Part shown: piece by piece, positions 1 through 60,563 of the stretch
Layout: each line of letters opens with the position of its first letter
Position numbering within the stretch: the stretch's first letter is position 1
Origin: Antitrichia curtipendula
Lineage: Eukaryota > Streptophyta > Bryopsida > Hypnales > Leucodontaceae
NCBI GenBank assembly: GCA_951230915.1
Contig: OX579635.1
Coordinates: 43,276,001-43,340,000 of the forward strand
Direction of reading: 5' to 3'
DNA: 64,000 bases
Made by a program: the position numbers and the translations under genes
The notes under the pieces: model-generated
Databases searched by the model: none
The model's input: only the letters and a program-made list of their open reading frames with translations
Told to the model about the DNA's origin: nothing

Positions 1-1115
1 TCTAGAAAACAATAAGCTTAATTCCTTCCTTGTTGTCAATTCATTGAAGAATATTTGGAGGGATGTCACATTAGAAGGGTTTTTTTCCTGAGATGTGGCA
101 AAATTTTATCATAATTATTTTGTTGATCAAGTATATGATGGAGAAGCTTACAATGGCATAATATTGTTTATCAATGAAGGAAGGGTCTCTTTGGCATTTT
201 AAAAAAGGGGACTCCTACAATAAACAAAATTGTCTTGTATGACTCCTCAACCAACTCCAATCCTTATGTTAACTAAAAAGCTCTTTATAAACAACTAGGG
301 AGGTATAATACCTTCCCATAAAGGAGAAAACTTCATTGCTTGGTTATACAATATCATGGGCTTTCAAAATATTTCACACGTTTACAAAAATTGCCATAGC
401 TAATTAAATAATTAGAGATTTCCAACAAAATTTGGACATGTTTTGGTACAAATAATACATTTGTATAAATTTATGTGTCAATTTTTTCTAAAATCATAAA
501 ATTCTTTCAAAATGTGACACATAATTTTGAAAGTGTGAGAAAAGCTTTTAGAATTTTTTTAATTTAGAATTTTTTAAAATAAATTTACTATTGAAAAAAT
601 CCCTTTTATCCCCTAAACTTTGCGGATTTTCTCAAGATTTTATGATTTTCAAAGATTCATTATAAAACAAATTTGCTTAAGATAAATTAAATAACAAAGT
701 TTGAATAAAATTTGTCTATAAAAAACCATAGATTACATTTGAACAATTAGATATGTTCAAATTATCATCAATATTTTATATAATACAAAGAAACTAAAAA
801 TAATGAATACTTCAAAAATTTATTACAATCAAAGTTTTTGACATTCTTTTAATGATTTTTGGTAGCAAGATCCAAATGTAAAATCCTACCTATGAAAACA
901 TTTTCAAATTTAATTTTCAATCACAATCAAAATTCATCCTAATAAGACTTTTAAAGCAAGAAAGTCATAAAATACTTCAATTCAAAAATTCATAGAATGT
1001 TTATACAAATGACTTTCCAAAAATTATATGGTGAAAATATTGAATGATTAGCATACTCCATATAAAAAAATTGAATGGATGAAATAACAAATCCAAGTGA
1101 ATTAAATCATTTTTC
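1..1115. other. AT-rich non-coding repeat DNA left of the retrotransposon
   Basis: No convincing coding region. The last 90 bases (about 1030-1115) resemble 24835-24915, and the sequence after the retrotransposon (19199-19240) resembles the continuation there (24916-24960). The block is therefore a copy of a dispersed AT-rich repeat into which the retrotransposon inserted. Confidence 0.6.
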
Positions 1116-1120
1116 CTGTC
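1116..1120. repeat. Target-site duplication, left copy (CTGTC)
   Basis: CTGTC directly precedes the LTR at 1121 and recurs directly after the other LTR. Five bases is the usual length for Ty3/gypsy integration. Confidence 0.9.
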
Positions 1121-3461
1121 TGTAATCTAAGATTTTGCCTTCCTAGCAAAAACCCAGGACTAAGTATAGGGGTTCCAAATCCTAAGGGAATGGTCAAATC
1201 GTCTATCGTTTTGCAGCTAGAAGTCACATATAAATCGAAAGAAAATAGAATATACACACAAATTCAACTAGGAAATTACTTTATTCACTCTTATACCCAA
1301 GTTATAATTTAGTGGACAGTCCATTAAATAATGCTATGGACGCATGGAGTGCTGTCTCAGTCCTGTCTAGTATGCTACGGGTATTTCATCGGACAATTTG
1401 TCAAGGTAGACCGTCAATTTGTCATGCATGATCTAGACAACTAACAATGCATATTTATATAATAATAATTTTATATAATTATACACATTCCTTAATTATC
1501 ATAATCTTTATATTAGAACAATTTTTCCAGTCACTAATTAACTAGCCTATTTACTAGTTAAATGAGAATTCAAATCAGTATCAGTTTGTAGGACAATTTG
1601 TCTCTATCTAAATGCAGTGGGAATGTGTGTGTAATGCATTTCCTTCAATTGTTCCTTGAACATTCATCCATTTTCATCTACAACCATTTGTTAGTTCACA
1701 CATCAACACAAGATACACATACAATTTCAAAAGTTAGAATTAATTCGATAACTACTTCTTTTACTAATGAAATTATACAATTCACCAAACCAGGGCAATT
1801 TGTCTTGATAATAATTTTTATTAAAAAGAATTATTATCTATCTATTCAACAATCTCTCCTAAACCAATTACAATTTAATAAATACAATTTTTTTTTAAAT
1901 AAAAATTGTATTGGCTCATTTGTTTTTTTGTTTTTTTTCACATACAAATTATTTGAATTAATTCTTTATCTTTAATCTATACATTTGATTGATTTTTATT
2001 TTTATTTTATTTTATTTATTTTTATAATTTTTCAATTAATCAAATTATATTCTATCACTTTTGATATTTCAAACAATTAATTTCCTAGGACAATTTGTCT
2101 AATTTGGTTGATAATTCAACCAAACATAATTTTCTAAAAATGGTTTATAGTATTCAATTTGTATTTTTCTATCACTTTAAAGAATTCACTTCATCACTAT
2201 TTTGGACAATTTGACAAAACTTTAATTTTAATCTTAATACTTCTAATCTAATTACAAAAGAATTTCATAATTTGACAATTTGGCAATTTATTAATAATAA
2301 ATAATTATAATTAACAAACTTAACAGACAATTTGTCTTTCAATTTGGCAGCCACAATTTCCAATTGGTCTGCTCACAGTCTTCATTTCTGCTTCACTGCA
2401 CCTCGGACAATTTGTCTTGTTTCACCGTCTGCTTGGTCTTCACTCGATCCAGCTTCACTTAACAGGCAATTTGTTCATAATCTCACTCCTAATCTATAAT
2501 TTGCTCTCAGACTTTATTCTCTCAATATGATTTACAGCCAGTCAATTTGTCCAAATAAAATTATCCATACATTCAAACGCAAACTAATTCATTTACAATT
2601 CACATACATCCACTACTCGGACAATTTGTCAACACAAGAATTCATACAAATCACACAATAAAAATCTCAATCAAGAATTCAAAATTCATACATTAATTCA
2701 CTGTTCCATTTCAGATACATGGCAGCTTGGACAAATTGACTCTACACTATGTTTGTATACATAATACATGTTGCTCACACACACTGGACAATTTGACTCA
2801 GCCACACCTAATTCAGTTTCAATCCAATTCATTCCACACAATCATCATATAATAAGACAATTTGTCCATACCTGGTTTCCATCAACGGGAAACACAAATA
2901 TATACACTGATCACACTGATCATACAAAAATCCATTTAATACACATATTCCCAATTGACTTCAGACAAGTTGTCTACAAGTTTCACACACGAGAATTCCA
3001 CACTGGAATGAATACATACAAGGACAAATTGACTGTACATTCAACAGGAGCACAATCAGAATTCATATTCCAAGACATCATCAAACACACAAGACAACTT
3101 GCTGAAATTGAGAATTATATTCACAGAAGCTGATTACATAATATGTTTAGGACAAATTGACTCAGCCAGAGCATACGTAAGTGCGTCAGAGCATCGGAAA
3201 AATTCAGTATGAGAGAGAGATTCGAGAGAGAGAGAAATGACAAATTGACTTCTTATATTCTCCGACTGTGGCAACCCTTCGAACTTGGATACCAAGTCAA
3301 ATTGTCTGTATAGATCCCTATTACTACAATTTTCTCTAATTCTCTTAAAGTTCGACAATTAGTCTGTATTACCATTCTAATACCGAGTCTGTAAGTCAAG
3401 TTGTCCCTATTTACACTATCCTCAACAAATCGCCCAAAAATGAAAAATTTAGAAGACTACA
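1121..3461 (-). repeat. 3' LTR of the gypsy element (2,341 bp)
   Basis: Begins TG and ends CA on the plus strand and repeats at 16853-19193 with a constant offset of 15732; no difference was seen in the stretches compared. It is AT-rich, has a GA-rich stretch at about 3210-3236, and carries seven exact GACAATTTGTC sites (starting 1392, 1592, 2089, 2326, 2406, 2620 and 2856) plus many variants. The small plus-strand open frames inside it are identical in both LTRs and do not look like proteins. Confidence 0.95.
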
Positions 3462-3476
3462 TGCCCCCCTACTTAT
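3462..3476 (-). other. Polypurine tract next to the 3' LTR
   Basis: On the minus strand AAGTAGGGGGGCA directly abuts the LTR start (TGTAGTC), the position of the plus-strand priming site in reverse transcription. The accessory ORF ends only about 17 bases upstream of it. Confidence 0.8.
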
Positions 3477-3492
3477 CTTATTGACGGCCTCG

Positions 3493-6291
3493 TCAATAAT
3501 GGCGTTGTCTCTTCTGATTCAAATGATGGTCTTGGCGACGTTGCTGTTGTAGCTCGGCTCTTTCCACTGTGCGCTTTACCACTGGATCTCGTGCTAAAAG
3601 CTGCGGATTCCCCATCCTCTGCGAATCGTACCAATACTGCCAAGCCGAGAATCTCGTGCATGGAAATTCATTGATAAAGCATAAATGAGCACCCGCCCAA
3701 AAATGGGTGATGGCCATGATCTCTACCAATCGATGGCATCTGGTCGCCTGGTGCTGAATCTTGAGCATAAGATGGAACTCAGGTCGGTTAATGTCAAATT
3801 GATTGATGTCGATAAGGATCTTGTGCTGGCGACACATCTCTGTTAAGAATCCGCAAAACACTGCAGCTCTGAAGCATACTGGATCCGTATGGTGAATGTG
3901 CCGCTCATGGAAAGCAGCATAAGTCTCCGCGCACTGCTCCGGTGTAGCATATCGTCCTGGAATCAAGGGCCAATTGTACTCTACAGAATCTATGGTAGCA
4001 TCCGGTCTCCACTTATGTCGCCTCTTGCAAGGACAAAAATGACCATTTGTCAAAACCGCAGCCGGTGGGTTTAGTTGCCAGTCGTGGGAGAGGTTCGGAT
4101 ACACCTGGTCATACGGTACACTCTCCTTCAATGTCTGCCCATAATCTTCAACCAGCCATTCCAAAGCCCTCCAAGATGGAATCGGGCGCTCCACCTCATA
4201 ATCCCCAAACATGCACTCGTAATTACCCAAAAAGTATTGTGTGAGTTCAGTTCCCATCACCGGAGGTGTTACTCGCAACCAGGCTGCTGGAACAAAGTTC
4301 ACAGGCGGCAAGGCAATCTCAGAAGAAATCCTGGTGTTTGGAATCACTATCATCTTCTGATTCGCCTTATCCACGATGTTTTCCAATCGCTGATACGTCT
4401 TCTGCAGGTTATACACATAATGGCTATTTGACAATTCGCCTCTTTGCGCAATAGCTTCCCGCTCAAGACAATTTGTCTGGACTTCGTGGATGATGCGGGC
4501 TTCTCCTGGGGTCTTGATACAAGTCTTCAAATAAAGCAGCTCCTTCCTTCTCTCCTCGGACAATTGGTCGGTGATCTCGCTTGACGGACGAATTGTCAGC
4601 TGATGATCTATAATTCGTACTTTCCTAAATTCTTCCTCAGCTCTGTCAATTTGTCGCTGGTGATGAAGCTGCTTCTCCAAACCAACGTAATACAATAATG
4701 CCCGTGCTCCCACATCGACAATTGGACAAAACAGAAGAGACCAATCGTCCAACAAAAGATCTCCGCGAACCAACATCTCACAAATCAAATTCCTCTGGTT
4801 TTCCACATTCTCAGCTTCAGTCCACATTTCTTCAAACACCTGTGACTCCAGCAAGGCAAATCGTTCCAATCCCACCATGTCCAGAAACACACCACGTTGT
4901 AACTCGTACTCATGGAAAAGAGAATATGATGGTGGAGAACAAAGCTGATGCTTCTACAAAGACTTCTTCAACTCGTCATTTTTCTCCTTCTGCACCTCCA
5001 TCTGAGACTGAAACTCATCATTCAATGCGGCTAATTGCTTCAAGTCTTCCTGCAGCTCCTTGTGGTCGAATGAAGTACCACAATCCACCGTCTCCACTGG
5101 TCTCGCCGGTCTCTTGAGTTCAGTAGCCTATTGTTGGTTTTTGAGCTCCAAGTCCTGAACTTTGGCCACGTGACGTTGTTCTTGCAATCTGATTTTCTCC
5201 AAAAATCCAGCTTTTACAGCTTCCCACTCCTAACGGTCTCGATGCATTGTAGCCTGAAGTGCGGTCAAATTGCCTTTCTGATCCTCACTCTCCTGCTCCT
5301 TATGTTTAAGCTGCACCTGCAATTCGCCCTCGGCGTCCAAGCTCTTCTGAAGCTCCTCTGTCAGCACTGTAACCTTCACTTGCAGGAGTTTATTTTGCTG
5401 TACCAAATTTTGCTTTGGCATAGGACTATTTGTCAAGTCATGCTCTGTACTCCTTACTTGCTGGACTACCTGCTCTGCCATACGCTCAGGTGGTGTTGGA
5501 GGTGGCGGGGTCTCCTTTAGACAAGTTGTCGAAGCTGGAGCTGAACGAGTTGACTTAGTAGGCTTCGGGACAACTTGACGGTCGATAGCTGGTTCTTTAA
5601 ATTTCAATGGCTGAATCTGCAAATCGTGCTTGGCTGAAGACTGGCACAAAACCGAAAGGTAAGTAGCCGAGATAAGGGAGATGGGATTTCAGGCACTCTT
5701 CAACATCATCTCCGACTTCACCTGCTGATAGACAATTTGTCCCCAATCCAAATGTTGCCCATTCCAAGCAACTAAGCCAGCCGTAAGTGCTTCCAAAGTA
5801 GCCAGCTCCGCCCTACTTGCCATGAATAACCTCTGATTGACAAATTGCAGCCAATTGGACAAGGGTGCTGAGATCCTCATTAAATCCCATCCCCCAGTCT
5901 TCTTAGCAGTCTGATATTTCTCTCCAAAAAGTTGAATCTTCATGGTCTTAATAAGAGCGGGAATGGTCTTCAAGGGCCGGCCACCTTCCACAATACCAAG
6001 GAGTTCAGTAAATCTGGAACCGTCAAATTGGCAAGGGACTCCTTGGACTTGTATCTTGTCGACAATTCGTCCAAAATTTGTAGTCAGGACAAATTGTCGA
6101 ACACGCTCCAGGTTAGGCTGGTCCCATACTCGGTGGATGTAAGTCCACATTCCAGTTGCTTTCATCTCTGTCTTCCGCTCCTTATCAATTTGCTGTAGAA
6201 TCTCTGGTGGAAGTTCATATAGGGCTATTGCATAGGCCTTCAGCTCTCCTTTAGGTGCCATCTGACAATTTGTCGAAAGCATGTTAACCAC
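3493..6291 (-). pseudogene. Accessory ORF of the gypsy element, one frame broken by four stops
   Basis: From the ATG at 6291 a single reading frame of 933 codons runs to 3493 with no frameshift but four in-frame stops: TGA at 5689-5691 and TAG at 5230-5232, 5128-5130 and 4954-4956. The longest open pieces are 200, 139 and 465 codons. The first 200 residues have a pattern (P..ERVRQF, VQGVPCQFD, FTELLGI) resembling the plant-transposon-associated domain found beside many plant retrotransposons; this is inference. Residues about 215-280 are proline-rich. Residues about 285-450 are rich in Glu, Gln, Lys and Leu and look like a long coiled coil. The last 465 codons are a globular-looking segment of unknown function. 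It occupies the place of the env-like ORF of Athila elements, but I see no signal peptide or membrane segment. GACAAATTGTC sites lie inside it in different codon phases. Confidence 0.65.
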
Positions 6292-8983
6292 TTACTCCCT
6301 GGCTACTTATAATTTTAACTATTATCTCGACAATTTGTCTTCAGCTTGTCCTTAACTTTCAACTGCAGCTCTCACCTTACTAGAAAGTCATTTTCTCTCA
6401 ACGCTCCTTTTCTCTTTCTATTATCAGCTATTATCTCACTTTCAGTCAATTTGTCTTACTGCTTACAAGGATTACTTCCTTAATCACTCTGAATTCTTAC
6501 ACTCTCAGCAAATTGACTTCCTCAGGCTTCCATTAATTCTCTTATCTTCTTCTTGAGTTGTGAAACAATTAAATTTAGACAATTTGTTTCAATTTATCAT
6601 GTTTTTGTTTTTTGTTTTTTGTTTTGTTTTGTTTTTTGTTTTTTTTTGTTTTAAACTTTACAATTCTTAATAATGACAAGAAAAAGTTTTCACTTATAAG
6701 ATTTCTTCATTCAGTCATTCCTTTCAAAGCACTCATTTTCTCTCAACTTTTATTAATTTGACAAATTATCTAATAAGGATTCACTCTGGTCAATTTGTTC
6801 AAAGTATTAGAGAAAGGTCAGGCTCTAATTGTTCTTTCTTTGGCAATTTAATCCCCTGATTCACTCACAATTTTATCATGTTCTCTTACCTTCTCTACAT
6901 TTTATTTCCACTCGGCAAATAGACAAACTAAATTGAAAAAGAATACATCAAACTTAATACAAATTTGACCATTTGACGCACTTTAAAATATTCACTCGGC
7001 AAGTAGACAATTTGACCGTGACACTTACCTTAATCTTAAAGCTACGCTCACTGTACTTCTTCACTCAGGCAATTTGCTTTTAAAATGAATCCTTTGACAA
7101 CTTGTCAGTAGTTTAGGCACTCTGTAAGAAACACAAAAGGTTCAGTATAAAATTGCAAGAATCAGTATTAAGAATCTCAAATTCACTCGACAATTCGTTC
7201 TAATCCTTGGTCTCTCTTTTATTATCTTGTACTTTCAACTAAAACAAGGTCAATTTGATCAACTTAACAAGATTCCTATTGCTCCTTTCTCTCTGCAAAT
7301 TATAAAGTCAAATTGTCTGTATCTCACCTCAGCCTTCCACTTGTCTGTACTCTTGTCAATTTATCGTGGTCACTCCTCACAGTATGCAGTAGTCAGCTGG
7401 AACAAGGACAAGTTGTTAATATGTTAGTTGATTCTTTATCTACAATTTTCAACCTTCTCGTCAAATTGCCTCACAGACTACAATATTGATTCAGCAGAGC
7501 TACTCGAGGTTCAATTAGTCCTACTTAACTAAGTTTCAAATTTTATAATCAAGTTCTATCAGGACTGAAGACTAATTGTTCTTTTCCTCTACAATTTCCA
7601 CTCAACAATTTATTTCTTCTTGCTCCTCCACTACTTGTCAATTGTTTTTTTTTTTCTTAGCATCAAATGGACAAGTTGACAGACTCTTCTCAGCTATACT
7701 TAAGCTCACACTCATCAATTTCTTTGACAATTTGTCTGTTTGTTTATAATTCCTTCTCACAGGCTATTTAACTAAGTACATTAAAAACAAAACAAACTGA
7801 TTGCAATGAAGAGTCTCTCGGCAATTTGTCTGTATTTACTTCATTTTCATTTTTTTTTTTTTTTTTTAGACCATTGAAAACGTTCTCTTTTACAAGTTTT
7901 TGACAACTTAACAACCATCTGCAAATACTAACACTTTAAGAGAACAAAAATTACAACTTATCTTCTCAATCAACCTGTTTTCGACAATTTGTTCACTCAC
8001 CGTAAAGAAACAGTCATGCACTCCTCTCTTACTGGACAATTTGTCTGTGACTCCACGACTCGTCAAACCCTAAACAATTTGCCACATGAAAAACAGTCAA
8101 TTGGTCAGCTCTTTGTAAAATTTCTTACTCGATTTGGCCATTAGTCCAGCATCTCATGTCCATTACCTGCACATCTTTCATTTCACAATACATTGTGTGC
8201 ACAAATTCAGACAAATTGCCTTTCATTACCGTTTTACAGATAAATTGTCCCGATTACAACCCTAATCTTGTTAATTCGTCCACTAAACACATACTTATCG
8301 GATAATCCTACTTATCCTAATCTTCCGCTAATTCAGGATTTACATTCTGATTAGTCTTAAACAATGTTCTCTTTTCTTCTTACAAGCTAGGGTTTCGTCA
8401 ATTCGTTTACACTCTGAACAATTTGTTAATCAATTTGTAACTGAAATCAAAATGACAAGGAATCGCCAAAAACTTACTTACCAATTTACAAACACCACCG
8501 TAATTCTCCTCGCAAGTTTGGAACAATGACAATTTGCCTTGATCGCTCACTCAATTGGGTTTAACAACCTCAGACAATTTGTCACTCTTGAAAATTCGTC
8601 CAGTTCTACGACAAATTGATGGCGCGAGGTTCAAGATACTCTGGTAACCGGATCGGCCGGTAACCAGTAACCTACCCAGTTTCTAATCATAATACTTCAA
8701 ATTGTCTTGGCATTTAATGCCCTTAATTATTTTCTTGATTTCCCTCCCCTTAGATCTTCTTATTAATTGTGAGTCAATTTGTCCTCATTTCTATTTGCTG
8801 TCAAATTGTCATTATTATTATTATTATTATTTTATTAAAATAAAAAAATTAAATTAAATCCTTTTTCTATTTTAAAGTGATCCACACAACATATGGTGAT
8901 TATAGTTATTTTTAACATAAAAATTTTCTAAAAAGAAAGAATCATGAAACAAAATTTTGCTAATTAATACAATTGTGTTTAGC
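6292..8983. other. Motif-rich non-coding region between pol and the accessory ORF
   Basis: About 2.7 kb with no substantial ORF on either strand, containing exact GACAATTTGTC sites at 6329, 7726, 8035 and 8573 and dozens of variants. It also contains a TTTTG-rich low-complexity run (about 6600-6652) and poly-T runs near 7850. Being upstream of the accessory ORF on the minus strand, it may hold that ORF's promoter. Confidence 0.7.
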
Positions 8984-9001
8984 CTGCCCCCTACTTAATC
9001 C
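8984..9001 (-). other. Second polypurine-tract-like site just after pol
   Basis: The minus-strand sequence GGATTAAGTAGGGGGCAG nearly repeats the tract beside the 3' LTR (shared core TAAGTAGGGGG). It lies 12 bases after the integrase stop. The accessory region is therefore bounded by a tract on each side. It could act as an additional plus-strand priming site or mark how the region was acquired. Confidence 0.6.
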
Positions 9002-9012
9002 ATAACTTGCCC

Positions 9013-9864
9013 TCAAGTTATGTAGGGCTTAAGGCGATAGCCATTATAGCGTGTTGCATGTTTATTTCCGGCAAAATCTTGTATTTCAACTGACCCATTA
9101 GGATATGAATTTAAAACTTTATAAGGGCCAAACCATCTTGTTTTAAATTTTCCCGGAAATTTTTGAAATCTACTATCGTACAAAAGTACTAAATCGTTAG
9201 GTTGTATTTTCTTTGGAATCAATTTACTATCATAGTAAGATTTCCTTCTTTTTTGTATGGCTTGCATATTCAAAAATGCTTTGCGGCAAGTTTCATCTAA
9301 TTTTTCTAACATATAATACCTTTCTTTTAAGGATTCTTCATCACCAAGTCTATTTTCAAGCGCAATTCGTAAGGATTGGACTTCCAGTTCTAGAGGGAGA
9401 ATTGCCTCTTGACCATAGACTAATTGAAAAGGGGTACTCTTGGTAGTAACCTTATATGCTGTCCTATATGCCCATAAGGCATCAAACACTCTTGCATCCC
9501 AATCTGTGTTTGATCCTTGGACTGTCTTTGTAATAATTTTACATAAAATACCATTAGTCTTCTCAGTTTGTCCATTGGCTCTTGGGTGGTAGGGGCTTGT
9601 TTTTCTATGTTTAATGGAATATTTTTCTGTGAGTTTTGCTATAATATTATTTAAGAAATGCGTTCCTCTATCACTAACCAATTCTTTTGGACAACCAAAC
9701 CGGGTAATAATGTTTTCATATAAGAATTTAGCAACAGTGTGGGCATCATCGCTTTTTGTAGCACTTGCTTCTGCCCATTTTGTAACATATTCGGTGGCTA
9801 CCAAAATGTATCGTTTTCCACCATTTCTACTTGGTGGGTTAATTGGGCCAACAAAATCTATACC
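9013..9864 (-). pseudogene. Integrase core and C-terminal domain (pol after an in-frame TAG)
   Basis: This segment continues the pol frame after the TAG at 9865-9867. It holds the integrase catalytic domain: the first Asp in the GIDFVGP segment just after the stop, the second in VSDRGTHF, and the Glu in the NGQTEKTNG segment. A basic C-terminal region follows, with KFKTRWFGPYKV as in gypsy integrases. The first internal Met is at 9804, but that start would lose the first catalytic Asp. The integrase joins the cDNA to the chromosome, so without readthrough of the stop this copy should be non-autonomous. The ORF stops at 9013, just before the polypurine-like site. Confidence 0.85.
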
Positions 9865-12825
9865 CTATTTTTCAAAAGGAATTTGGGCTAAAATGGGTGT
9901 TAGGGGCATAGAAGTTGTCGGAGTAGGTTTCCCTACTCTTTGACAAGGATCACACTTTTTTGCAAATGCTATAGCATCAGCAAATAAGGTTGGCCACCAA
10001 TAACCTGCTTGCAAAGCTTTTTGAGCTGTTACTGTTCCAGCAAAGTGTCCTCCACAGACTTGACTGTGACATCCTTCCAAGATCAAGGACACTTCACTTG
10101 GATTAATGCATCTTCTAAGAAGTCCATCTTTACCCTTTTTATAGAGGACTTCATTGATTAATGTGTAAGGACTAACCTTATACATTAATTTTTTCTTTTG
10201 TTTTTCTGTAAATTCTATAGGGAATTGTCCTGATAATAAATAATGAATAATTTCTGCATAATCTGGAGGAATGACATCGACGTGGAATAAATCAGCATCA
10301 GGGAAATTATCATCAATTGGTTCAAGTCCTAATTCAGAATTTATACGAGAAAGATGGTCAGCATTAGCATGACTCTTTCCAGGTCTTACCTGAATGGTAA
10401 AATTGAACTCTTGAAGCAATAATACCCATCTGGCAATTCGTCCACTTAATTGAGGTTTGTTAATCATGTATTTCAGTGCATCATGATCAACATGAAAAAC
10501 AAATTTGTATCCTAATAAATAGTGTCGAAATTTTTGAACCGAAAAGATCATTCCTAACGCTTCCCTTTCAGTGACAGTGTAATTTTTCTCTGCCGCTGCT
10601 AATTGACGACTAGCAAAATAAATTGGTCTATCATGTCCTTTTTCATCTTTTTGACTTAACACACTACCTATGGCAACATTTGAAGCATCTACATATACTT
10701 CAAAGTTCTTATCCCAATCTGGTGGAATCAATACAGGGGTTGTGATTAATTTTTGTTTTAATATTTCAAAAGCTTGAGTACAAGCTGGTGTCCAAATAGG
10801 TGCAGTATCAGACTTTTTAGTTAATTCCGTAAGAGGAATGGCTATGTTAGCATACTTATAGATATATCGTCTATAGTATCCAACATGGCCTAAAAAGGCT
10901 CTTACCTCTGTGACAGTATTTGGTTGTGGCAATTGTACTATTATTGCTACCTTATCTGGGTCTGTAGCAATTCCTTGACTAGACACTATATGACCCACCA
11001 ATTTGCCAAATGGTACGGCAAATTGCGATTTAGCGGCATTAATAGAAATTCCATACGTTTCACATTGTATAAAACATTTTTCTAAACACTCTGCATGTTT
11101 TTCTTTGGAATTATAAACACAAAAATCATCCAAAAAGATTTCTATAAATTTTCGTAAATATTTTTGAAATGCGATGGTCATTAGCCTTTGAAAAGTCGCT
11201 GGGGCATTACACAAGCCAAAAGGCATTTTAGTATGTGCAAAAATACCCCAATCTGTTGTAAAGGCTGTTAACAATCTATAGATTTCAGCAATTTGGATTT
11301 GATTATATCCAGAGAAACCATCCATAAAAGAATAACACTCATAACCCGCAACACAATCTAAGAGAGTGTCTGTAAATGGTAAGGGAAAATGATCTTTCTT
11401 TGTAACACTATTCAATTTTCTATAATCCTGACAGATTCTAATTTTTCCATTCTTTTTAGGAACAATTACAATAGGTGATACCCATTCACTGTATGGCACC
11501 TCAAAGATGAATCCACAAGCTAAAAGTTTGTCAATTTCTTCTTTGACCATTAGTGAATATTTGGGATTCATTCTATATTGTCTCTGTCGGACAGGTTTTA
11601 CATCAGGTTCTAGAATTATTTTATGCTCACATATATCGGGTGGAACACCTTTTAGATCTGCATAAGTCCAAGCAAAAGAACTTTTATGTCTTTTAAAGAA
11701 TCCCTTCCAATATTTAAATTCTACTTTAGTCATTTTTGAATAAATTTTAATAATTTGCGGATTTTCGTTAGTACCCAAATTCATATCTTGAACTGGTTTT
11801 CTTAAAGATTCTTTAAAAGTTTTCCTTTGCAAAAAGGTGGATTCACTATTAGCCAACATGTCCTCAACTTCCTGAGTATCAGAAAGAAATTCTGGTTCTG
11901 AATCAGATTTTTCCTCTAAACTGATATTAAAAACCTCCGAATTTTCCCATGCCAATATGGCATCATCAGAATCCTCGATTTGGGCTAAAGGAGTGAAATA
12001 TTCACCAAATCCTAAGCTTCTATAAGGTAGTTCCTGATTAATCTTTTGTGTTTGTTCTATCTCACTTCCACTTCCAGTTTGTCTTTCAGAAGTGACATCA
12101 CTATCTTCTGGTTGAGTTTCACCATGGTATGTTATAGGATATAATGGTAACACAATTTTATTTTCTCCTGTTCCAATTGTAAGTGTCCCTTTTCCCCAAT
12201 CATCCTTAGCTTTTGCTAAATACAACCATGGTCTTCCCAGAAGAATAGGATAAGATGAAATTGACTCTGATAATTTGAAAACAATGTAATCAATTTTATA
12301 GTTAATTCCACCTATATTAGTTTCAACTTGATTTACTATCCCTAACGGTTTGACTCTACTTTGGTCAGCCATTCGGAGTATTATAGGTGTTGGGGTCATA
12401 GTGGTTAATCCCAATTCTTCCATTGTTTCAAAATTCATGAGATTAACACTAGATCCACTATCTATTTGAACATTTTGGATTAAAGATCCATCTATCACAA
12501 CATCCACCGTAGGAGCTCTAGGGTCTCTAGAAATTTCATGTATTTCCACAGTCTTGGATCTCTTCTGTATTAAAGATGTACTTAAGTCACTCCTACATTT
12601 AGGTGAAATTGCTAGAAATTGTTTCATACTAATCAAGGGTTGAATTCGATCAAGATTAGCCAAAATATTATAAGGTTCCATCCCTTCTACTAGTTTCATA
12701 GTCCGTAAAGCTCTTCTTTTTGTTAATCCTTGGCTATTAGATCCTAGGTTTACTCGTTTTGCAGGAATTTGATAAAAATTAGGTAAAGGTACAGAATTAG
12801 TTACAGGGTTTTTATCTTTTAACAT
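9865..12825 (-). CDS. Gypsy pol: aspartic protease, reverse transcriptase, RNase H, integrase zinc domain
   Basis: A 986-codon frame starting at ATG 12825, immediately after the gag stop and in the same frame. Aspartic protease DSGSS is at residues 122-126. The reverse transcriptase spans about 430-620, with PFGLCNAPATFQ and catalytic FLDDF (about 566), the F.DDF form typical of the Ogre/Tat/Athila branch rather than YxDD. RNase H runs about 705-830, with YVDAS, TEREAL and ANADHLSR. The His/Cys zinc-binding part of integrase follows (CHSQVCGGHF to CDPCQR). The frame ends at TAG 9865-9867, inside integrase, where the family has no boundary, so this looks like a nonsense mutation. Confidence 0.93.
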   Translation of the reverse strand: MLKDKNPVTNSVPLPNFYQIPAKRVNLGSNSQGLTKRRALRTMKLVEGMEPYNILANLDRIQPLISMKQFLAISPKCRSDLSTSLIQKRSKTVEIHEISRDPRAPTVDVVIDGSLIQNVQIDSGSSVNLMNFETMEELGLTTMTPTPIILRMADQSRVKPLGIVNQVETNIGGINYKIDYIVFKLSESISSYPILLGRPWLYLAKAKDDWGKGTLTIGTGENKIVLPLYPITYHGETQPEDSDVTSERQTGSGSEIEQTQKINQELPYRSLGFGEYFTPLAQIEDSDDAILAWENSEVFNISLEEKSDSEPEFLSDTQEVEDMLANSESTFLQRKTFKESLRKPVQDMNLGTNENPQIIKIYSKMTKVEFKYWKGFFKRHKSSFAWTYADLKGVPPDICEHKIILEPDVKPVRQRQYRMNPKYSLMVKEEIDKLLACGFIFEVPYSEWVSPIVIVPKKNGKIRICQDYRKLNSVTKKDHFPLPFTDTLLDCVAGYECYSFMDGFSGYNQIQIAEIYRLLTAFTTDWGIFAHTKMPFGLCNAPATFQRLMTIAFQKYLRKFIEIFLDDFCVYNSKEKHAECLEKCFIQCETYGISINAAKSQFAVPFGKLVGHIVSSQGIATDPDKVAIIVQLPQPNTVTEVRAFLGHVGYYRRYIYKYANIAIPLTELTKKSDTAPIWTPACTQAFEILKQKLITTPVLIPPDWDKNFEVYVDASNVAIGSVLSQKDEKGHDRPIYFASRQLAAAEKNYTVTEREALGMIFSVQKFRHYLLGYKFVFHVDHDALKYMINKPQLSGRIARWVLLLQEFNFTIQVRPGKSHANADHLSRINSELGLEPIDDNFPDADLFHVDVIPPDYAEIIHYLLSGQFPIEFTEKQKKKLMYKVSPYTLINEVLYKKGKDGLLRRCINPSEVSLILEGCHSQVCGGHFAGTVTAQKALQAGYWWPTLFADAIAFAKKCDPCQRVGKPTPTTSMPLTPILAQIPFEK

Positions 12826-15309
12826 TCATGGGGTTTCTAATGATTTGTTTAATCTTTCCTGGCGTTCTTTCCAAGTCATTTCTTTAGTAGGATGAACTAA
12901 CTCAAGTTCTACTATAGTTGTTTCTTCTTGTTCTATAATAGGTTCAACAATCATAGGAATTTCTTTTCCCTTTTCTTTTTGATGTTCTACTATCGGTTGT
13001 TGAGCCTTAGTTGCCCTCGTGGCAACAAAAACATTATCAAGTTCATCTTTTGTCAGAATATGAGAAATATGGTTAGAGGGTCTAGTATTATCTTGATTTT
13101 GAAATTGTACTTGTTTGTTCCTAGGATAATCTCGCTCCGATGGTGGAAATTGTCTGGGTGGGGCAGTGCAGTCTTCTGGTAAATGTCCATCTTGACGACA
13201 TCTGCCACACCAAGGAGTGTATCCTACTTCTTTCTTAGGATTAGGACATTCATTTGAATAATGTCCATATTCCCGACATCTAAAACACAATACATTTTTC
13301 TTTCTCTCCGTTTGATCATACCTTGATTTAAAATTTGACGATTGTTCCCTCTCATTCCATCTTGGACGATTTCCATTAGACCTAGGAGGTGACCCCTCGT
13401 TTGGTCTTAGGAATGGTCGTTTATTTGAATTATTTTTATTTACCCAGGGTTTATTGTTATCAATTTGAAGGACTTGTCTGACAGCTTGCAAGTCTTGTTT
13501 GACTGAAGCTAAATTCCAACATTTGTCTGTAGGATGATTTCCACCACAATAACCACAATGAGGTTTTTGATTTATACTAGGAGAAGGACATTCAGAGGGC
13601 AAATGGCCTTGTCCTTGACAATTTGTGCACCACACATTTGTTCTTGTGTTAGAGGGTTTTCCCCTTTTAACTGGTGCATTAGTAATTTGCACTCTTAAGT
13701 CAGCCATTTCTTCTACTAATTTATTAAGTAAATCTGTTTTAGTATCCTTAACCTCAAGTACTGGAGGTACCTTAACTATAGGTTGTATAGGATAATTTTT
13801 AACTGGTTGTGGTGGATGCTGGTATGGTGCAATTTGCATTCCCATTTGCGGATACATCACATCCGCTGGGTATAAAGTAGGATCTATTATTCCCAATTGT
13901 TCTTCTCCTATACGTGCCTCTTCATACTGTTTGGCATATTGTACAGCAATAACCAGGTCAGCAGGATTCTTTTCTTTAATTGCAATTTTGAATTCTGGGG
14001 GATATAATCCTCCCACAAAAATTCCAGTTAAATAAGCGTCTGGAATCCCATGACGAGTCCACCTCTGTAGAATATATTCCATTCTCCCATAATAACTATT
14101 CACACTCTCCCCAATTCCCATTCTTATCGTTCTTAATCGTTCCTGTAAACTTTCCCGGAAGGCTAATGGTCTAAATCTGGTTAAGAAAGCATCCCTTAAT
14201 GCATTCCAGACTCCAAAAGGACCATTAGTATGATACCATTCTTGTGCTATACCAATAAGAGTAGCGGGGAAAGTAGTCAGGAAACTAGCCTCAGGTATCA
14301 TATTAGCCCCACAGACTATGTTAAAACGATTCAAATGGTAATCAGGATCTGATCCTGCTTGTCCATTATATTGTGGTAAATGTACCAAATTCAATGGTCG
14401 TGGTTGAGCCATTGGATAATCGTCCAACCACGGATCCTCTTGTAAATCTGGAGTTTCAATATCTAAATCCAAAGTAATTGGTAATTGGGGTACTAGTTGA
14501 TGCACTTGTTCTGGTGCAGGTTGATAAGGTCCCAAATTTGGTTGATATGGGGGTGTTTGAAAACTAAAAGGATTAATATTTTCACTGTAATTATAATCCA
14601 AATAATCTCCAAGGGGTATTTCTAATCGGGGTGGTGATCCAAATGTTTCCGAAACTACAAAAGGAGTTTTAGAATTTTGTATATCTTCCCTTATAGGTGA
14701 TAGGTAATCTTCTAACCTACCCGCTATATTCCCACTACTTTGATTCCATGTATTTCTCAGATATTCTGTGAGAAATACATTGGCTTCAAAAAGTTGTGGC
14801 TCTGATTTAGGAAAATAATATTCTAATGGTGATATTGTAGGTGGAGTATTAAGAATACTCAGAGGTGAAGGTTTCGAAGTTCCTTCAAGTGAATAATCTA
14901 AAGTTCTACTAACAGAAGATTCACTAATAGGTGTGATAGCACGATTTATTATCTCTAAGGAAGTAGCAGTATCTTCAATTGGTGTTCCTTGACCTACTCG
15001 TTCATCTCTTGAGGTTTCTTCAAGACCTTCTAATATGGTAGAACTAATTTCAAAGTCAATATCAGATTCTAACAATTCACTTTGTGGTTCTTCCAATTGC
15101 GAATTAGCAATTAAATTTTGAAATTGTCTGATTGATTCCGAAGTTCCTGGTTCTATTGGACTAGAAGGTATCCTAACATGTGGTAATTTAGGTGGTGAAA
15201 AACAAGGGTTTACGTAAACAGAGGGATTTCTCCTATGTTTAGGTTTTCCCCATTCTGCTATTTTCTTAGCAGCCTCTTTTAATACTTTATCAGGTGTTCT
15301 ATCGGACAT
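12826..15309 (-). CDS. Gypsy gag with four zinc knuckles
   Basis: 827 codons. The first 290 residues are Ser/Pro-rich and acidic with no recognised domain. A retrotransposon gag (capsid) domain follows, about 295-470 (LPQYNGQAGSDPDYHL, AQEWYHT, FLTRFRP). Then come four cysteine knuckles: CTNCQGQGHLPSEC (about 559), a variant CX2CX3HX4C (CGYCGGNHPTDKC, about 585), CFRCREYGHYSNEC (about 675) and CGRCRQDGHLPEDC (about 700). Gag packages the element RNA into cytoplasmic particles. The stop is TGA at 12826-12828, followed directly by the ATG of pol in the same frame. Pol could be made by stop readthrough or reinitiation, or the TGA could be a mutation. Confidence 0.92.
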   Translation of the reverse strand: MSDRTPDKVLKEAAKKIAEWGKPKHRRNPSVYVNPCFSPPKLPHVRIPSSPIEPGTSESIRQFQNLIANSQLEEPQSELLESDIDFEISSTILEGLEETSRDERVGQGTPIEDTATSLEIINRAITPISESSVSRTLDYSLEGTSKPSPLSILNTPPTISPLEYYFPKSEPQLFEANVFLTEYLRNTWNQSSGNIAGRLEDYLSPIREDIQNSKTPFVVSETFGSPPRLEIPLGDYLDYNYSENINPFSFQTPPYQPNLGPYQPAPEQVHQLVPQLPITLDLDIETPDLQEDPWLDDYPMAQPRPLNLVHLPQYNGQAGSDPDYHLNRFNIVCGANMIPEASFLTTFPATLIGIAQEWYHTNGPFGVWNALRDAFLTRFRPLAFRESLQERLRTIRMGIGESVNSYYGRMEYILQRWTRHGIPDAYLTGIFVGGLYPPEFKIAIKEKNPADLVIAVQYAKQYEEARIGEEQLGIIDPTLYPADVMYPQMGMQIAPYQHPPQPVKNYPIQPIVKVPPVLEVKDTKTDLLNKLVEEMADLRVQITNAPVKRGKPSNTRTNVWCTNCQGQGHLPSECPSPSINQKPHCGYCGGNHPTDKCWNLASVKQDLQAVRQVLQIDNNKPWVNKNNSNKRPFLRPNEGSPPRSNGNRPRWNEREQSSNFKSRYDQTERKKNVLCFRCREYGHYSNECPNPKKEVGYTPWCGRCRQDGHLPEDCTAPPRQFPPSERDYPRNKQVQFQNQDNTRPSNHISHILTKDELDNVFVATRATKAQQPIVEHQKEKGKEIPMIVEPIIEQEETTIVELELVHPTKEMTWKERQERLNKSLETP

Positions 15310-15499
15310 CTAAAACATGCCATAGATCCAAAAAAAACAATATTTTTGTTTGGCGAAGCAAAACCCGGGAAACATTGGGGACACGCTATCTCAACAAGGA
15401 GGTAATGGGTGCCCAATGTTCACCGAGTTACCTTCTTCACTCAATCTTAGGATCTTATAGCAGGTTTTCCTGCTTTGCCAAACCGTATGGGATAAAGTT
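15310..15499 (-). other. Leader between the upstream ORFs and gag
   Basis: About 190 bases separate ORF B from the gag ATG. The sequence is moderately GC-rich compared with its surroundings and has a CCCGGGTTTTGC/GCAAAACCCGGG-containing stretch near 15350. No domain is recognisable. Confidence 0.4.
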
Positions 15500-16018
15500 C
15501 TACAGACTAACGTACTCGAAGGTAACAGGACAGATCGAACTAAAAGAAGGACTCATTGAATTGGCTCTTTCTTTACATACAAAATCTGGAATTAAGGGTG
15601 TTACTGCAGGATTCATTGGACCATAGGTAAATTTATAAATTTGTTCCAAAATTTTGGCCCCAGTCCATGCAGCATAAGGATGTGGTATTTTATCCTTAGT
15701 TTGAAATTTTAGTTTCCCATACTGACTAAATAGATAATGTAAAGAAAAGTCCAACAATAGTTCGCCTCTTTTAACTACAAACCCTTTTTGTATTTCTATT
15801 TTTTCCCAAATCTTACTAAATATAATTCTTTTTACATCCAATGGAAGGTTTTCTATTCTGACTTTTAATTGGTTATCCTTTATGTGGTGTCCACTTAATT
15901 GGAAACCTTGCCCAAAATATGCATTTTTATAAAGGCGATACAGGGCCATAAATAGACAAGGGCCAGAATAAAAATCCTTTATTACTTTGGTTGTTTCCCA
16001 AGGAAATATGTGATCCAT
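15500..16018 (-). CDS. Upstream accessory ORF B of the gypsy element (172 aa, unknown)
   Basis: Starts at MDHIFPWETT, ends at 15500. No domain recognised. It is rich in aromatic and basic residues and has no signal peptide or zinc motif. It is in the same frame as ORF A but separated from it by two stops (a TAA and a TGA within 30 bases), so the two are probably distinct proteins. Ogre-type elements characteristically carry an extra ORF before gag, which fits its position, but I cannot align it to a known family. Confidence 0.6.
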   Translation of the reverse strand: MDHIFPWETTKVIKDFYSGPCLFMALYRLYKNAYFGQGFQLSGHHIKDNQLKVRIENLPLDVKRIIFSKIWEKIEIQKGFVVKRGELLLDFSLHYLFSQYGKLKFQTKDKIPHPYAAWTGAKILEQIYKFTYGPMNPAVTPLIPDFVCKERANSMSPSFSSICPVTFEYVSL

Positions 16019-16045
16019 TTTGTTTCATTTGAACTTAATGCAACT

Positions 16046-16588
16046 TTAGTATAATTTAAGGTTAGATTTTCGATTATTTCGTTGGGATGGGTGAGAATAT
16101 ATTAGTGTATTTATCACAGTCCTAAGTTGAAGTAATTCTTCCAAAGGAATATGGGGTCCCCCTATTAAATCTAATTTTCTTGATAATATGTCAAAAACTA
16201 GATCATATGGAATATAGTTCTGTTCTTTAGGCTTAAAATTTTGTAATGGGTCAATAGTTTTCTGTTTGGTATTATCAAAGGCTTGTTTCTTAAAACACGT
16301 GCTTTTGATATGTCCTGTCTCTCCACACCAATGACACTGGTTCCCTTCTCTAAACCCTTGAATTTTGCCTGGTTTATAAGCTCTAGTGTTTCCAAAATTT
16401 GAACAGTTAAAATTTGTATGTCTACAATTAAGTTTTTTACTAGATTCTAAAGAGGGTCTAATATTTTGAAGAAAAGTATTACTATACTTAAATGTAGGAA
16501 CTTCTTTCTTAAAATTTTCCTTTATTGAAAAGATTGATGTTAATACATCTTCTATTAATTCCTCTCCTATCTTTTTCCTAGTCTCCAT
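16046..16588 (-). CDS. Upstream accessory ORF A with a CCHC zinc knuckle (180 aa)
   Basis: First ORF after the primer-binding site. It starts METRKKIGEE and carries one zinc knuckle, CHWCGETGHIKSTC, at residues 85-98 (C-X2-C-X4-H-X4-C). The protein is basic and Asn/Lys-rich, consistent with nucleic-acid binding. It lacks a capsid domain, and the real gag with its own four knuckles follows, so this is an additional ORF as in Ogre/Tat elements. It could be a duplicated nucleocapsid fragment or a separate RNA-binding protein. Confidence 0.65.
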   Translation of the reverse strand: METRKKIGEELIEDVLTSIFSIKENFKKEVPTFKYSNTFLQNIRPSLESSKKLNCRHTNFNCSNFGNTRAYKPGKIQGFREGNQCHWCGETGHIKSTCFKKQAFDNTKQKTIDPLQNFKPKEQNYIPYDLVFDILSRKLDLIGGPHIPLEELLQLRTVINTLIYSHPSQRNNRKSNLKLY

Positions 16589-16832
16589 TCTCCAGTATCA
16601 TAATAATTTGTGTAATGAAATTTTTCTAAAATAACTTATTATTTTTCAAAATTAAGAGCTCAAATAAGAATATTTAATATAAGAAAATTCACATGTCATT
16701 CTTGAATTATTAATTCAAAGAAGCTACATAGTTTGATTTTCTTAATTATTCTCAAATTTGTTTCTTTTAAATTTAAAAATAACAGTTTAAAAAAATCTTT
16801 TCTACATTCTAGCCACCGTTAGCCAGGACCAT

Positions 16833-16850
16833 TCCCCGGCAGCGGCGCCA
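16833..16850 (-). other. Primer-binding site, tRNA-Asp type
   Basis: On the minus strand the 18 bases TGGCGCCGCTGCCGGGGA lie two bases inside the 5' LTR. They are complementary to a tRNA 3' end finishing CGGCGCCA, as in plant tRNA-Asp, the primer of several plant gypsy elements. One base (C in GCCGCTG) differs from the form I know best, GCCGTTG. Confidence 0.85.
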
Positions 16851-16852
16851 AA

Positions 16853-19193
16853 TGTAATCTAAGATTTTGCCTTCCTAGCAAAAACCCAGGACTAAGTATA
16901 GGGGTTCCAAATCCTAAGGGAATGGTCAAATCGTCTATCGTTTTGCAGCTAGAAGTCACATATAAATCGAAAGAAAATAGAATATACACACAAATTCAAC
17001 TAGGAAATTACTTTATTCACTCTTATACCCAAGTTATAATTTAGTGGACAGTCCATTAAATAATGCTATGGACGCATGGAGTGCTGTCTCAGTCCTGTCT
17101 AGTATGCTACGGGTATTTCATCGGACAATTTGTCAAGGTAGACCGTCAATTTGTCATGCATGATCTAGACAACTAACAATGCATATTTATATAATAATAA
17201 TTTTATATAATTATACACATTCCTTAATTATCATAATCTTTATATTAGAACAATTTTTCCAGTCACTAATTAACTAGCCTATTTACTAGTTAAATGAGAA
17301 TTCAAATCAGTATCAGTTTGTAGGACAATTTGTCTCTATCTAAATGCAGTGGGAATGTGTGTGTAATGCATTTCCTTCAATTGTTCCTTGAACATTCATC
17401 CATTTTCATCTACAACCATTTGTTAGTTCACACATCAACACAAGATACACATACAATTTCAAAAGTTAGAATTAATTCGATAACTACTTCTTTTACTAAT
17501 GAAATTATACAATTCACCAAACCAGGGCAATTTGTCTTGATAATAATTTTTATTAAAAAGAATTATTATCTATCTATTCAACAATCTCTCCTAAACCAAT
17601 TACAATTTAATAAATACAATTTTTTTTTAAATAAAAATTGTATTGGCTCATTTGTTTTTTTGTTTTTTTTCACATACAAATTATTTGAATTAATTCTTTA
17701 TCTTTAATCTATACATTTGATTGATTTTTATTTTTATTTTATTTTATTTATTTTTATAATTTTTCAATTAATCAAATTATATTCTATCACTTTTGATATT
17801 TCAAACAATTAATTTCCTAGGACAATTTGTCTAATTTGGTTGATAATTCAACCAAACATAATTTTCTAAAAATGGTTTATAGTATTCAATTTGTATTTTT
17901 CTATCACTTTAAAGAATTCACTTCATCACTATTTTGGACAATTTGACAAAACTTTAATTTTAATCTTAATACTTCTAATCTAATTACAAAAGAATTTCAT
18001 AATTTGACAATTTGGCAATTTATTAATAATAAATAATTATAATTAACAAACTTAACAGACAATTTGTCTTTCAATTTGGCAGCCACAATTTCCAATTGGT
18101 CTGCTCACAGTCTTCATTTCTGCTTCACTGCACCTCGGACAATTTGTCTTGTTTCACCGTCTGCTTGGTCTTCACTCGATCCAGCTTCACTTAACAGGCA
18201 ATTTGTTCATAATCTCACTCCTAATCTATAATTTGCTCTCAGACTTTATTCTCTCAATATGATTTACAGCCAGTCAATTTGTCCAAATAAAATTATCCAT
18301 ACATTCAAACGCAAACTAATTCATTTACAATTCACATACATCCACTACTCGGACAATTTGTCAACACAAGAATTCATACAAATCACACAATAAAAATCTC
18401 AATCAAGAATTCAAAATTCATACATTAATTCACTGTTCCATTTCAGATACATGGCAGCTTGGACAAATTGACTCTACACTATGTTTGTATACATAATACA
18501 TGTTGCTCACACACACTGGACAATTTGACTCAGCCACACCTAATTCAGTTTCAATCCAATTCATTCCACACAATCATCATATAATAAGACAATTTGTCCA
18601 TACCTGGTTTCCATCAACGGGAAACACAAATATATACACTGATCACACTGATCATACAAAAATCCATTTAATACACATATTCCCAATTGACTTCAGACAA
18701 GTTGTCTACAAGTTTCACACACGAGAATTCCACACTGGAATGAATACATACAAGGACAAATTGACTGTACATTCAACAGGAGCACAATCAGAATTCATAT
18801 TCCAAGACATCATCAAACACACAAGACAACTTGCTGAAATTGAGAATTATATTCACAGAAGCTGATTACATAATATGTTTAGGACAAATTGACTCAGCCA
18901 GAGCATACGTAAGTGCGTCAGAGCATCGGAAAAATTCAGTATGAGAGAGAGATTCGAGAGAGAGAGAAATGACAAATTGACTTCTTATATTCTCCGACTG
19001 TGGCAACCCTTCGAACTTGGATACCAAGTCAAATTGTCTGTATAGATCCCTATTACTACAATTTTCTCTAATTCTCTTAAAGTTCGACAATTAGTCTGTA
19101 TTACCATTCTAATACCGAGTCTGTAAGTCAAGTTGTCCCTATTTACACTATCCTCAACAAATCGCCCAAAAATGAAAAATTTAGAAGACTACA
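16853..19193 (-). repeat. 5' LTR of the gypsy element (2,341 bp)
   Basis: Second copy of the LTR, adjacent to the primer-binding site, so it is the 5' LTR of the minus-strand element and should contain the promoter. It carries the same GACAATTTGTC array as the other LTR. I could not place a transcription start with confidence because TA-rich stretches are everywhere. Confidence 0.95.
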
Positions 19194-19198
19194 CTGTC
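19194..19198. repeat. Target-site duplication, right copy (CTGTC)
   Basis: Matches the five bases at 1116-1120 and closes the 18-kb element. Confidence 0.9.
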
Positions 19199-19584: not shown

Positions 19585-20341
19585 CTACACTGAATAGTGA
19601 AATTAGGTCGCTCCTCACTAATTTCTCGACATTCCACACTATTTAAATATTTATTATTTCTATACAAAAAAATACTACTTTTGAATTAATTTTTTTAATG
19701 TAGTTGGAACTCATGAACCTCCATGTATATAAATGGAAGTACTTGTAGAGATATTTTTGACTTTGATGGCTTACACAATAACTTTTGGGGGGTAAGGGCA
19801 TTTGCAATGCAGCCCCTGTATATGGCCCGATATCGGTATAACTAACTTTTGAACGGTAAATAATTAGAACCTAAAAATTGTCTCATTGGAAGCGCATCAG
19901 AAATAACTTGGAGAAGGTTCAAGAAAATTCAAAATTAAACATTGGACAAGTACTTCAAAAGCAAGGTAAAAATCTGAAATTATAGAGGTCTTAGCAAATC
20001 GCAGATACCAAAGCAACATTTGGCCATTGACCCTCTAAATATGGCCAAATGTGGGGGGTCAATGACCAAATGTTGCTTTGGTATCCGTGATTTGCTAAGA
20101 CCTCTATAATTTTAGATTTTTACCTTGCTTTTGAAGTACTTGTCCAATGTTTAATTTTGAATTTTCTTGAACCTTCTCCAAGTTATTTCTGATGCGCTTC
20201 CAATGAGACAATTTTCAGGTTCTAATTATTTACCGTTCAAAAGTTAGTTATACCGATATCGGGCCATATACAGGGGCTGGATTGCAAATGCCCTAAGGCA
20301 ACCTAATTGTAAAGGCAACCTAATTTCACTATTTAGTGTAG
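19585..20341. mobile_element. Outer inverted-repeat element with a nested MITE
   Basis: CTACACTGAATAGTGAAATT at 19585 is matched in inverted orientation by AATTTCACTATTTAGTGTAG ending at 20341. The pair encloses a second, complete foldback element (19796-20293). It is probably an older TIR element; no clear target duplication is seen. Confidence 0.5.
19796..20293. mobile_element. Tourist-like foldback MITE (PIF/Harbinger type)
   Basis: Nearly the whole 498 bp is one hairpin: the left arm 19796-20033 pairs with 20055-20293 around a loop of about 20 bases. Ends are GGGCATTTGCAAT, and TAA flanks both sides (19793-19795, 20294-20296), the target duplication of PIF/Harbinger MITEs. No ORF. The high arm identity suggests a recent insertion or homogenisation. 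Confidence 0.8.
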
Positions 20342-20968: not shown

Positions 20969-21506
20969 GGGTGGTAGGAGGTAGAACAACCCATGTGGGA
21001 TATGTAATTTAGAGTTTGTAATTTTTCAACCGCTCATATTTAAGTCTAAAGTAGGAATTGTGTTAAAACTATAATTTCAGACCTCATTTAGGCTTAGTAA
21101 AATAACTTTTTCCAAAATACTTTGAACTAAAATAAGTTGAAGAATCAAGTTAAATTTCATCTCCAAAAATCCGTTTGAGATTTTAATCTTCCACTCAAAA
21201 GTTATAGACAAATTTCATAGAGGGTTTTTTTTTTTGACATTTTCATACATCTTCTCTGAAATTTGTCCATAACTTTTGATTGGAAGATCTAAATTTAAAA
21301 AGGATTTTTGGAGATGAAACTTAGCTTGATTCCCCACCTTTTTTAAGTTCAAATTTAAAAAAAAAAAGGTATTCCACTATGTCTAAATGAGGTCTGAAAT
21401 TATAATTTTAACACAATTCCTACTTTAGACTTAATTATGAGCGTTTGAGAAATTACAAACTCTAAATTACATATCCCACATGGGTTGTTCTATCTCCTAC
21501 CACCCC
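20969..21506. mobile_element. Long foldback element, about 540 bp
   Basis: GGGGTGGTAGGAGGTAGAAC at 20969 pairs with the inverse complement ending at 21506. The arms continue with few differences (CCATGTGGGATATGTAAT) almost to the centre near 21230. A transcript would form one very long hairpin. Target duplication is not clear, so the superfamily is not assigned. Confidence 0.7.
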
Positions 21507-60562: not shown

Positions 60563-60563
60563 G

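Follow-up and report, generated by a model that had tools for sequence, protein, structure and literature searches.

A lineage-variable palindrome array in the long terminal repeats and post-pol region of a moss Ty3/gypsy retrotransposon: candidate binding sites for a dimeric protein

The 64-kb window analyzed here, positions 43,276,001 to 43,340,000 of contig OX579635.1 of the moss Antitrichia curtipendula, carries a complete 18-kb Ty3/gypsy retrotransposon (minus strand, 1121-19193) whose long terminal repeats (LTRs) and region downstream of pol are densely populated by the 11-bp palindrome GACAAWTTGTC. We observed that this motif is favored over synonymous alternatives within protein-coding sequence, and that some relatives of the element in the same genome (400 Mb, 303 contigs) carry palindromes of the same build with other outer bases. 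Judging from its symmetric odd-centered dyad, the lack of shared flanks, the preference at synonymous positions and the differences between families, the array very probably consists of binding sites for a protein dimer.

GACAAWTTGTC occurs exactly 22 times in the window, compared with a mean of 0.09 and a largest value of 2 in 100 dinucleotide shuffles. A preliminary description of this DNA had reported 15 exact sites where well under one was expected. Both statements were confirmed: all 15 are present between 1392 and 8583, and the remaining seven, which lay beyond the part it described, are the identical sites of the second LTR (17124-18598). The LTR array spans 1392-3405, with exact sites at 1392, 1592, 2089, 2326, 2406, 2620 and 2856, and its copy in the second LTR spans 17124-19137 (17124, 17324, 17821, 18058, 18138, 18352 and 18588). 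Between the first of these LTRs and pol, motif arrays extend over 4041-6274 within the frame of an accessory gene (exact W-sites at 4467, 5731, 6088 and 6264) and over 6329-8810 within a spacer (6329, 7726, 8035 and 8573). When one mismatch was allowed, we counted 20 sites in the LTR (0.04 expected from base shuffles), 11 in the post-pol reading-frame region (0.04) and 17 in the post-pol spacer (0.07), compared with none in pol (0.1), one in gag (0.07), none in the leader (0.04), none upstream of the element (0.03) and two in the rest of the window (0.95). The reported enrichment in the LTRs and the post-pol region was therefore upheld and is not matched by an equal density in gag-pol; gag-pol, which had been called nearly free of sites, is at chance rather than depleted.

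With the center left free, the 7.9 kb from 1121 to 9012 contain 18 exact sites, 52 within one mismatch and 77 within two. An open search of all 5-mer dyads with gaps of 0 to 12 ranked GACAA-N1-TTGTC first (n = 18), with the runner-up at 3. In the 77-site set, information outside the 11 bases amounts to at most 0.14 bits per position, indicating that the sites have no shared longer context and were not copied as longer units. Furthermore, half-site variants are symmetric: the left half has T as its second base in 9 of 52 sites, and the right half has A at the mirror position in 9 as well. An odd-centered dyad whose halves tolerate variants to the same degree agrees with binding by a dimer, as the preliminary description had suggested. 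No helical period was seen in the spacing of the two-mismatch sites.

The sites had been thought to be limited to non-coding DNA, which proved incorrect. The accessory frame holds 5 exact sites and 12 within one mismatch, compared with 0.11 and 1.29 in synonymous-codon shuffles (none of 3000 reached the observed values), and the 12 sites are spread over all three codon phases. In the most conserved C-terminal part of the frame (about 3496-4430), one-mismatch sites are limited to 4041. Coding DNA of relatives gave comparable results. Sites fill the pol gene of the element at locus L042, where the adjacent stretch L047 has 10 within one mismatch (3.2 in synonymous shuffles, 0 of 600 reaching the observed value), and two open frames at or beside the L042 accessory match have 9 (2.17, 0 of 600) and 4 (0.86, 2 of 600). 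An accessory piece at L019 contains 5 (1.08, 1 of 600). No excess over synonymous shuffles was found in four controls, in which either the motif or the element was exchanged, nor for GACAA in three gag-pol pieces of the window element. The GACAA motif is absent from the L047 pol frame, and the TCCAA motif characteristic of L042 shows no excess in the window pol (2 vs 0.87, matched by 59 of 300 shuffles) and is absent from the pol of another relative, L051. The excess over synonymous shuffles indicates that the motif is favored as DNA even in protein-coding sequence and points to selection acting on the DNA motif itself. We know of no precedent for such selection on retrotransposon motifs in the part of the literature available to us, where no search was aimed at this point.

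Matches to the accessory block number at least 97 stretches in the genome, where one copy may account for several of them, and the protein database contains 30 relatives. We scored dyads (half-sites containing two or more G or C, gaps of 0 to 3) in 30 accessory loci of 3.5-4.4 kb each, the best-scoring of the 97 stretches with the window's own included; L035 and L046 overlap, leaving 29 places. A clear array, defined by a gap-1 dyad with z of at least 10, was found in six of the 30: the window itself (L017) and L030 with GACAA, L019 and L034 with GTCAA, L038 with a mixture of GACTA, GTCTA and GTCAA, and L042 with TCCAA accompanied by ACCAA. Written out, palindromes of the motif types read GACAANTTGTC, GTCAANTTGAC and TCCAANTTGGA. 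The status of two further loci is doubtful: their GTCAA dyads have z of 5.6 (L018) and 6.7 (L043), and unrelated dyads reach 7.4. The arrays extend beyond the accessory loci, as TCCAA has 16 sites within one mismatch in L047 (0.5 expected) and GTCAA has 11 in L049, beside L019 (0.1 expected). On the opposite sides of the L042 and L019 elements, no dyad is significant in L048, and GTCAA has just four sites in L050 (0.2 expected).

Counts of exact sites and of sites within one mismatch in chosen loci gave 12/30 for GACAA, 0/2 for TCCAA and 0/14 for GTCAA in the window locus, 0/0 for GACAA and 4/29 for TCCAA in L042 with L047, and 4/23 for GTCAA and 2/13 for GACAA in L019 with L049 (L001 to L004, short copies of places covered otherwise, were left out of the motif tables). 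The motif types of the window and of L042 are thus cleanly apart, whereas the GTCAA/GTCTA type overlaps that of the window. The palindromes of the relatives keep the 11-bp 5-N1-5 build and mostly a CAA-N-TTG core, and differ in the outer bases. In a comparison of chosen loci, CAANTTG exceeds expectation 2.7- to 11-fold in the 11 stretches with a clear or doubtful array, and eight array-negative stretches have 0.4 to 1.8 times the expected number. In five background stretches, selected because they contain a GACAA site, the ratio is 1.4 to 2.8, so that the lowest positive, L038 (2.7), is not distinct by this measure.

Conservation of the array among family members, as the preliminary proposal requires, is evident in diverged LTRs. 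LTR similarity was found in six of the 12 stretches fetched for exact sites (L007 and L009 to L013). Outside the alignable LTR tail, L009 to L013 contain 7-16 sites within one mismatch, compared with 0.07-0.17 expected, and the window LTR matches them there in just two short segments of 31 and 22 bp, both in L012. The latter is a solo LTR with the duplication GGATG, and at the LTR start it has a further alignment of 135 bp. For the L013 LTR, the low end was set by eye. Since L009 to L011 are mutually close (79-94%), the five LTRs represent three sequence groups. Within the alignable tail, five site positions have an identity of 0.83, compared with 0.68 for positions placed at random (P 0.03); for the three best sites by themselves, P is 0.10. 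Genome-wide, GACAAWTTGTC is found at 959 places (63 for the reversed pattern), TCCAAWTTGGA at 2149 (123 reversed) and GTCAAWTTGAC at 436 (46 reversed). The listed GTCAA places are mostly scattered, and part of that excess may be background. We also noted an ORF that we read as F-box-like beside the L010 LTR.

We propose that a sequence-specific protein would bind these palindromes as a symmetric dimer and that, as far as sequence can tell, the sites are selected individually as DNA in LTR, spacer and coding sequence alike. The specificity goes with the element lineage, some relatives having other outer bases in the common 5-N1-5 frame with its mostly CAA-N-TTG core, most clearly L042 compared with the window. 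The binder may itself be encoded by the lineage, the first candidate being the post-pol accessory protein because it changes fast, has a middle part that we read as coiled-coil-like and shares its region with the array. Such a protein could act in trans on all site-bearing copies, opening or activating chromatin against silencing as the VANC proteins of VANDAL DNA transposons do. Selection for recognition by the element's own factor would explain both the spread of sites over the element and the differences between families. Whether a lineage-encoded binder serves self-recognition in the VANC manner appears to us evenly poised. We advance only tentatively the fuller scenario of a private palindrome read by a lineage-encoded dimeric factor, in which factor specificity and palindrome diverge together as an independently evolved retrotransposon counterpart of VANC.

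Several observations weigh against this proposal. The accessory frame of the window element contains four stops despite identical LTRs, suggesting that this copy moved without an intact accessory gene of its own or had no need of it. Stops also interrupt the accessory frame in five of the six clear array loci; in the sixth, L038, a 179-residue piece is stop-free and the neighboring piece has three stops. Many array-negative loci likewise carry accessory-frame stops. Pfam scans of three accessory pieces (E up to 0.01) returned no family, a result from sequence comparison in which distant relatives can be missed. There was no fold match either, and neither approach recognized a known DNA-binding domain. 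The conserved C-terminal block contains invariant Cys and His residues. In favor of the proposal, the two-mismatch sites are spaced more evenly than expected at random within the LTR (P about 0.02) and within the spacer (P 0.002) when each is analyzed separately; the accessory frame (P 0.74) and the stretch as a whole (P 0.69) show no such regularity. Furthermore, the notion that related elements carry different motifs, offered earlier as a test, holds for some relatives, but 22 of the 30 accessory loci have no array within the approximately 4 kb of each. These loci include about 1.5 kb on each flank of the accessory gene, and an array confined to a far LTR would be missed in the 22. No array is visible in L020 to L023, which are near-identical and have open accessory frames of 564-944 codons, nor was one found on reading the spacer of one of them, in stretch L051. 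Finally, the window pol is 80% identical to that of array-negative L051 (89 shared residues), compared with 71% for array-positive L049 and 61% for L047, a hint from few elements that the array does not simply follow pol.

In the accessory tree, from which L008 (short) and P0031 were left out, L030, P0001 and L018 are grouped with the window, and L019 with L038 stands next to them. All but one of the 22 array-negative loci form, together with P0002, a single clade (support 0.98) adjoining L034 and L043; the remaining one, L045, lies far away, as does L042. We count the single clade in favor of the proposal. This topology would be consistent with the array having been lost once, in the ancestor of the negative clade. 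The split of the window with L018 and L019 is weakly supported (0.62), and L018 and L019 are ordered differently in a second comparison, which provided the pol identities and used 33 of 60 rows, those with at least 400 residues, the near copies L020, L022, L023 and L046 being dropped. Between the window and L021/L051, the accessory protein is 49% and 30% identical and pol 83-87%. As separate observations, L020 to L023 probably represent a recently active relative, and the L051 stretch, in which the end of pol and the spacer of such an array-negative relative lie, includes an AT microsatellite.

Other explanations start from the same sites. Families may have tuned their arrays to different host transcription factors, as proposed for the palindromic repeats of Sireviruses, which match stress-factor sites in a database and in which small changes may attract different nuclear factors (PMC2829016). 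Sites are concentrated where promoters would be expected, in the LTR and ahead of the accessory gene, which agrees with this explanation. So does the GTCAA type, which contains TTGAC, the core of the W-box. However, the 52-77 sites, some of them in accessory coding DNA and in the pol of a relative, exceed the need of a promoter, and the recurring 5-N1-5 frame and CAA-N-TTG core with shifting outer bases fit one evolving binder better; we regard host factors as a somewhat unlikely source of the array. We consider it rather improbable that another protein of the element, such as a leader ORF product, the gag nucleocapsid or integrase, binds the sites, for instance in nuclear cDNA handling or RNA packaging. 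Gag does have a zinc knuckle (Pfam), one leader ORF has a CCHC-like motif by eye, and accessory-bearing relatives without a visible array exist, but so does a close pol relative without an array, L051. Moreover, an odd-centered palindrome self-pairs imperfectly as RNA, and the sense strand folds with no more than ordinary stability: over 150-base windows, z averages -0.06 for the LTR, -0.26 for the accessory frame, -0.27 for the spacer and -0.82 for gag-pol.

The same folding result bears on the idea that the palindromes are structured RNA, sources of small RNAs or by-products of silencing. LTR palindromes of maize Sireviruses have reportedly been linked to small RNAs, but the palindromes here measure 11 bp without an excess of stable sense-RNA folds, and a silencing target would not gain favor at synonymous positions; this origin seems very improbable. 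Short motifs can also spread neutrally, via replication slippage or conversion. Against such an expansion, we found no direct repeats of at least 40 bp (seed 15) in window positions 1-12000 and no tandem array over the sites, the flanks carry next to no information, synonymous positions show an excess, and site positions in the LTR tail tend to be kept at the modest significance given above. We consider neutral expansion equally far-fetched. The presence in one genome of several motif types of one architecture, alongside relatives in which no array was seen, makes the question of self-recognition directly testable, as probes, candidate proteins and negative controls can all be taken from a single plant.

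The element itself displays the features of Ty3/gypsy retrotransposons, namely an LTR pair with a target-site duplication, a gag gene, and a pol whose Pfam domains run from reverse transcriptase through RNase H to integrase. The two LTRs (1121-3461, the 3' LTR in element sense, and 16853-19193, the 5' LTR; both minus strand) are identical across 2341 bp, and CTGTC flanks both ends of the element (1116-1120 and 19194-19198). In sense order, the 5' LTR is followed by a candidate primer-binding site adjoining it (TGGCGCCGCTGCCGGGG, 16834-16850), leader ORFs A (180 aa, 16046-16588) and B (172 aa, 15500-16018), gag (Retrotrans_gag and zinc knuckle, 12826-15309), pol (9013-12825), the 2.7-kb motif-dense spacer (6292-9012, with 4 exact sites and the 17 within one mismatch), the accessory gene (3496-6291), a candidate polypurine tract by our reading (ATAAGTAGGGGGGCA, 3462-3476) and the 3' LTR, all on the minus strand. 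The CCHC-like motif mentioned above is that of ORF A; neither leader ORF has a Pfam match, or a tblastn match in the loci compared. Gag and pol constitute one frame, interrupted by a TGA that closes gag directly before pol and by a single in-frame TAG in pol at 9867. The accessory gene, in sense orientation and without frameshift, is a single 932-codon frame with in-frame stops at 5691, 5232, 5130 and 4956; it comprises a conserved C-terminal block (3496-4953), the coiled-coil-like middle and an N-terminal block (5692-6291). Taken together, the identical LTRs and the in-frame stops suggest that the insertion is recent and that these stops were probably already present in the source copy or arose on the way. 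The primer-binding site and gene layout resemble those of the Athila/Tat branch of plant gypsy elements.

Elsewhere in the window, two long inverted repeats (foldback, MITE-like) lie just past the element, at about 19780-20300 and 20990-21500. A UMP synthase gene (orotate phosphoribosyltransferase and OMP decarboxylase) occupies 60336-61994 as one open frame of 552 codons.

A search of an open library for the exact 11-mer returned only papers unrelated by title, and the nearest matches by topic concern Sireviruses and VANC. Sireviruses carry 8-32 copies per element of family-specific palindromic repeats in the LTRs and before the env-like gene, as described for 13 elements; the core is CGG-CCG in 12 of these 13 motifs, Tnd-1 being without the CGG core, and in two Sireviruses copies also occur at the start of the env-like gene (PMC2829016). 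The window element likewise has many copies of a palindrome in its LTR and before an additional gene, with diverged flanks, and shares with Sireviruses the family-specific dyads, the common core and the variable outer and central bases. Unlike the Ty1/copia Sireviruses, in which integrase precedes reverse transcriptase, it is a Ty3/gypsy element with integrase after reverse transcriptase. Its motif differs from the CGG-CCG type by the CAA-N-TTG core and by its 77 sites (two mismatches) in 7.9 kb, with coding DNA and the pol of a relative included. Among gypsy elements, Retand of plants has antisense TRP28 ORFs and tandem family-specific repeats; DNA binding was suggested there from prediction (PMC11963269). 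Both have a long region between pol and the 3' LTR that holds an additional gene and family-specific repeats, but here the accessory gene is in sense, has no Pfam match and is accompanied by dispersed palindromes (antisense ORFs of 118-139 aa are present). In position and orientation, the accessory gene corresponds to the sense env-like additional ORFs found between pol and the 3' LTR (PMC7264820).

VANC21 binds YAGTATTAY in non-coding DNA of VANDAL21, while VANC6 affects other elements (PMC5735166), and both binding and loss of methylation have been demonstrated for VANDALs (PMC5735166; PMC10398659), whereas the palindrome system described here is known from sequence. Common to both are short motifs concentrated in their own element and differing among relatives, here among some only, together with an additional variable element-encoded protein. 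In contrast to VANC targets, which are often tandem repeats in non-coding DNA, the palindromes are dispersed and extend into coding DNA. Furthermore, VANC has a DUF1985 domain, which was not detected in the three accessory pieces under the Pfam threshold given above. The case presented here joins features of Sireviruses and of VANC in gypsy elements and adds a site excess in coding sequence. It thereby bears on how transposons discriminate themselves from the rest of the genome and on whether LTR retrotransposons encode counter-measures against silencing; if the proposed mechanism is true, these elements would possess a VANC-like system of their own that spreads its sites differently, coding DNA included.

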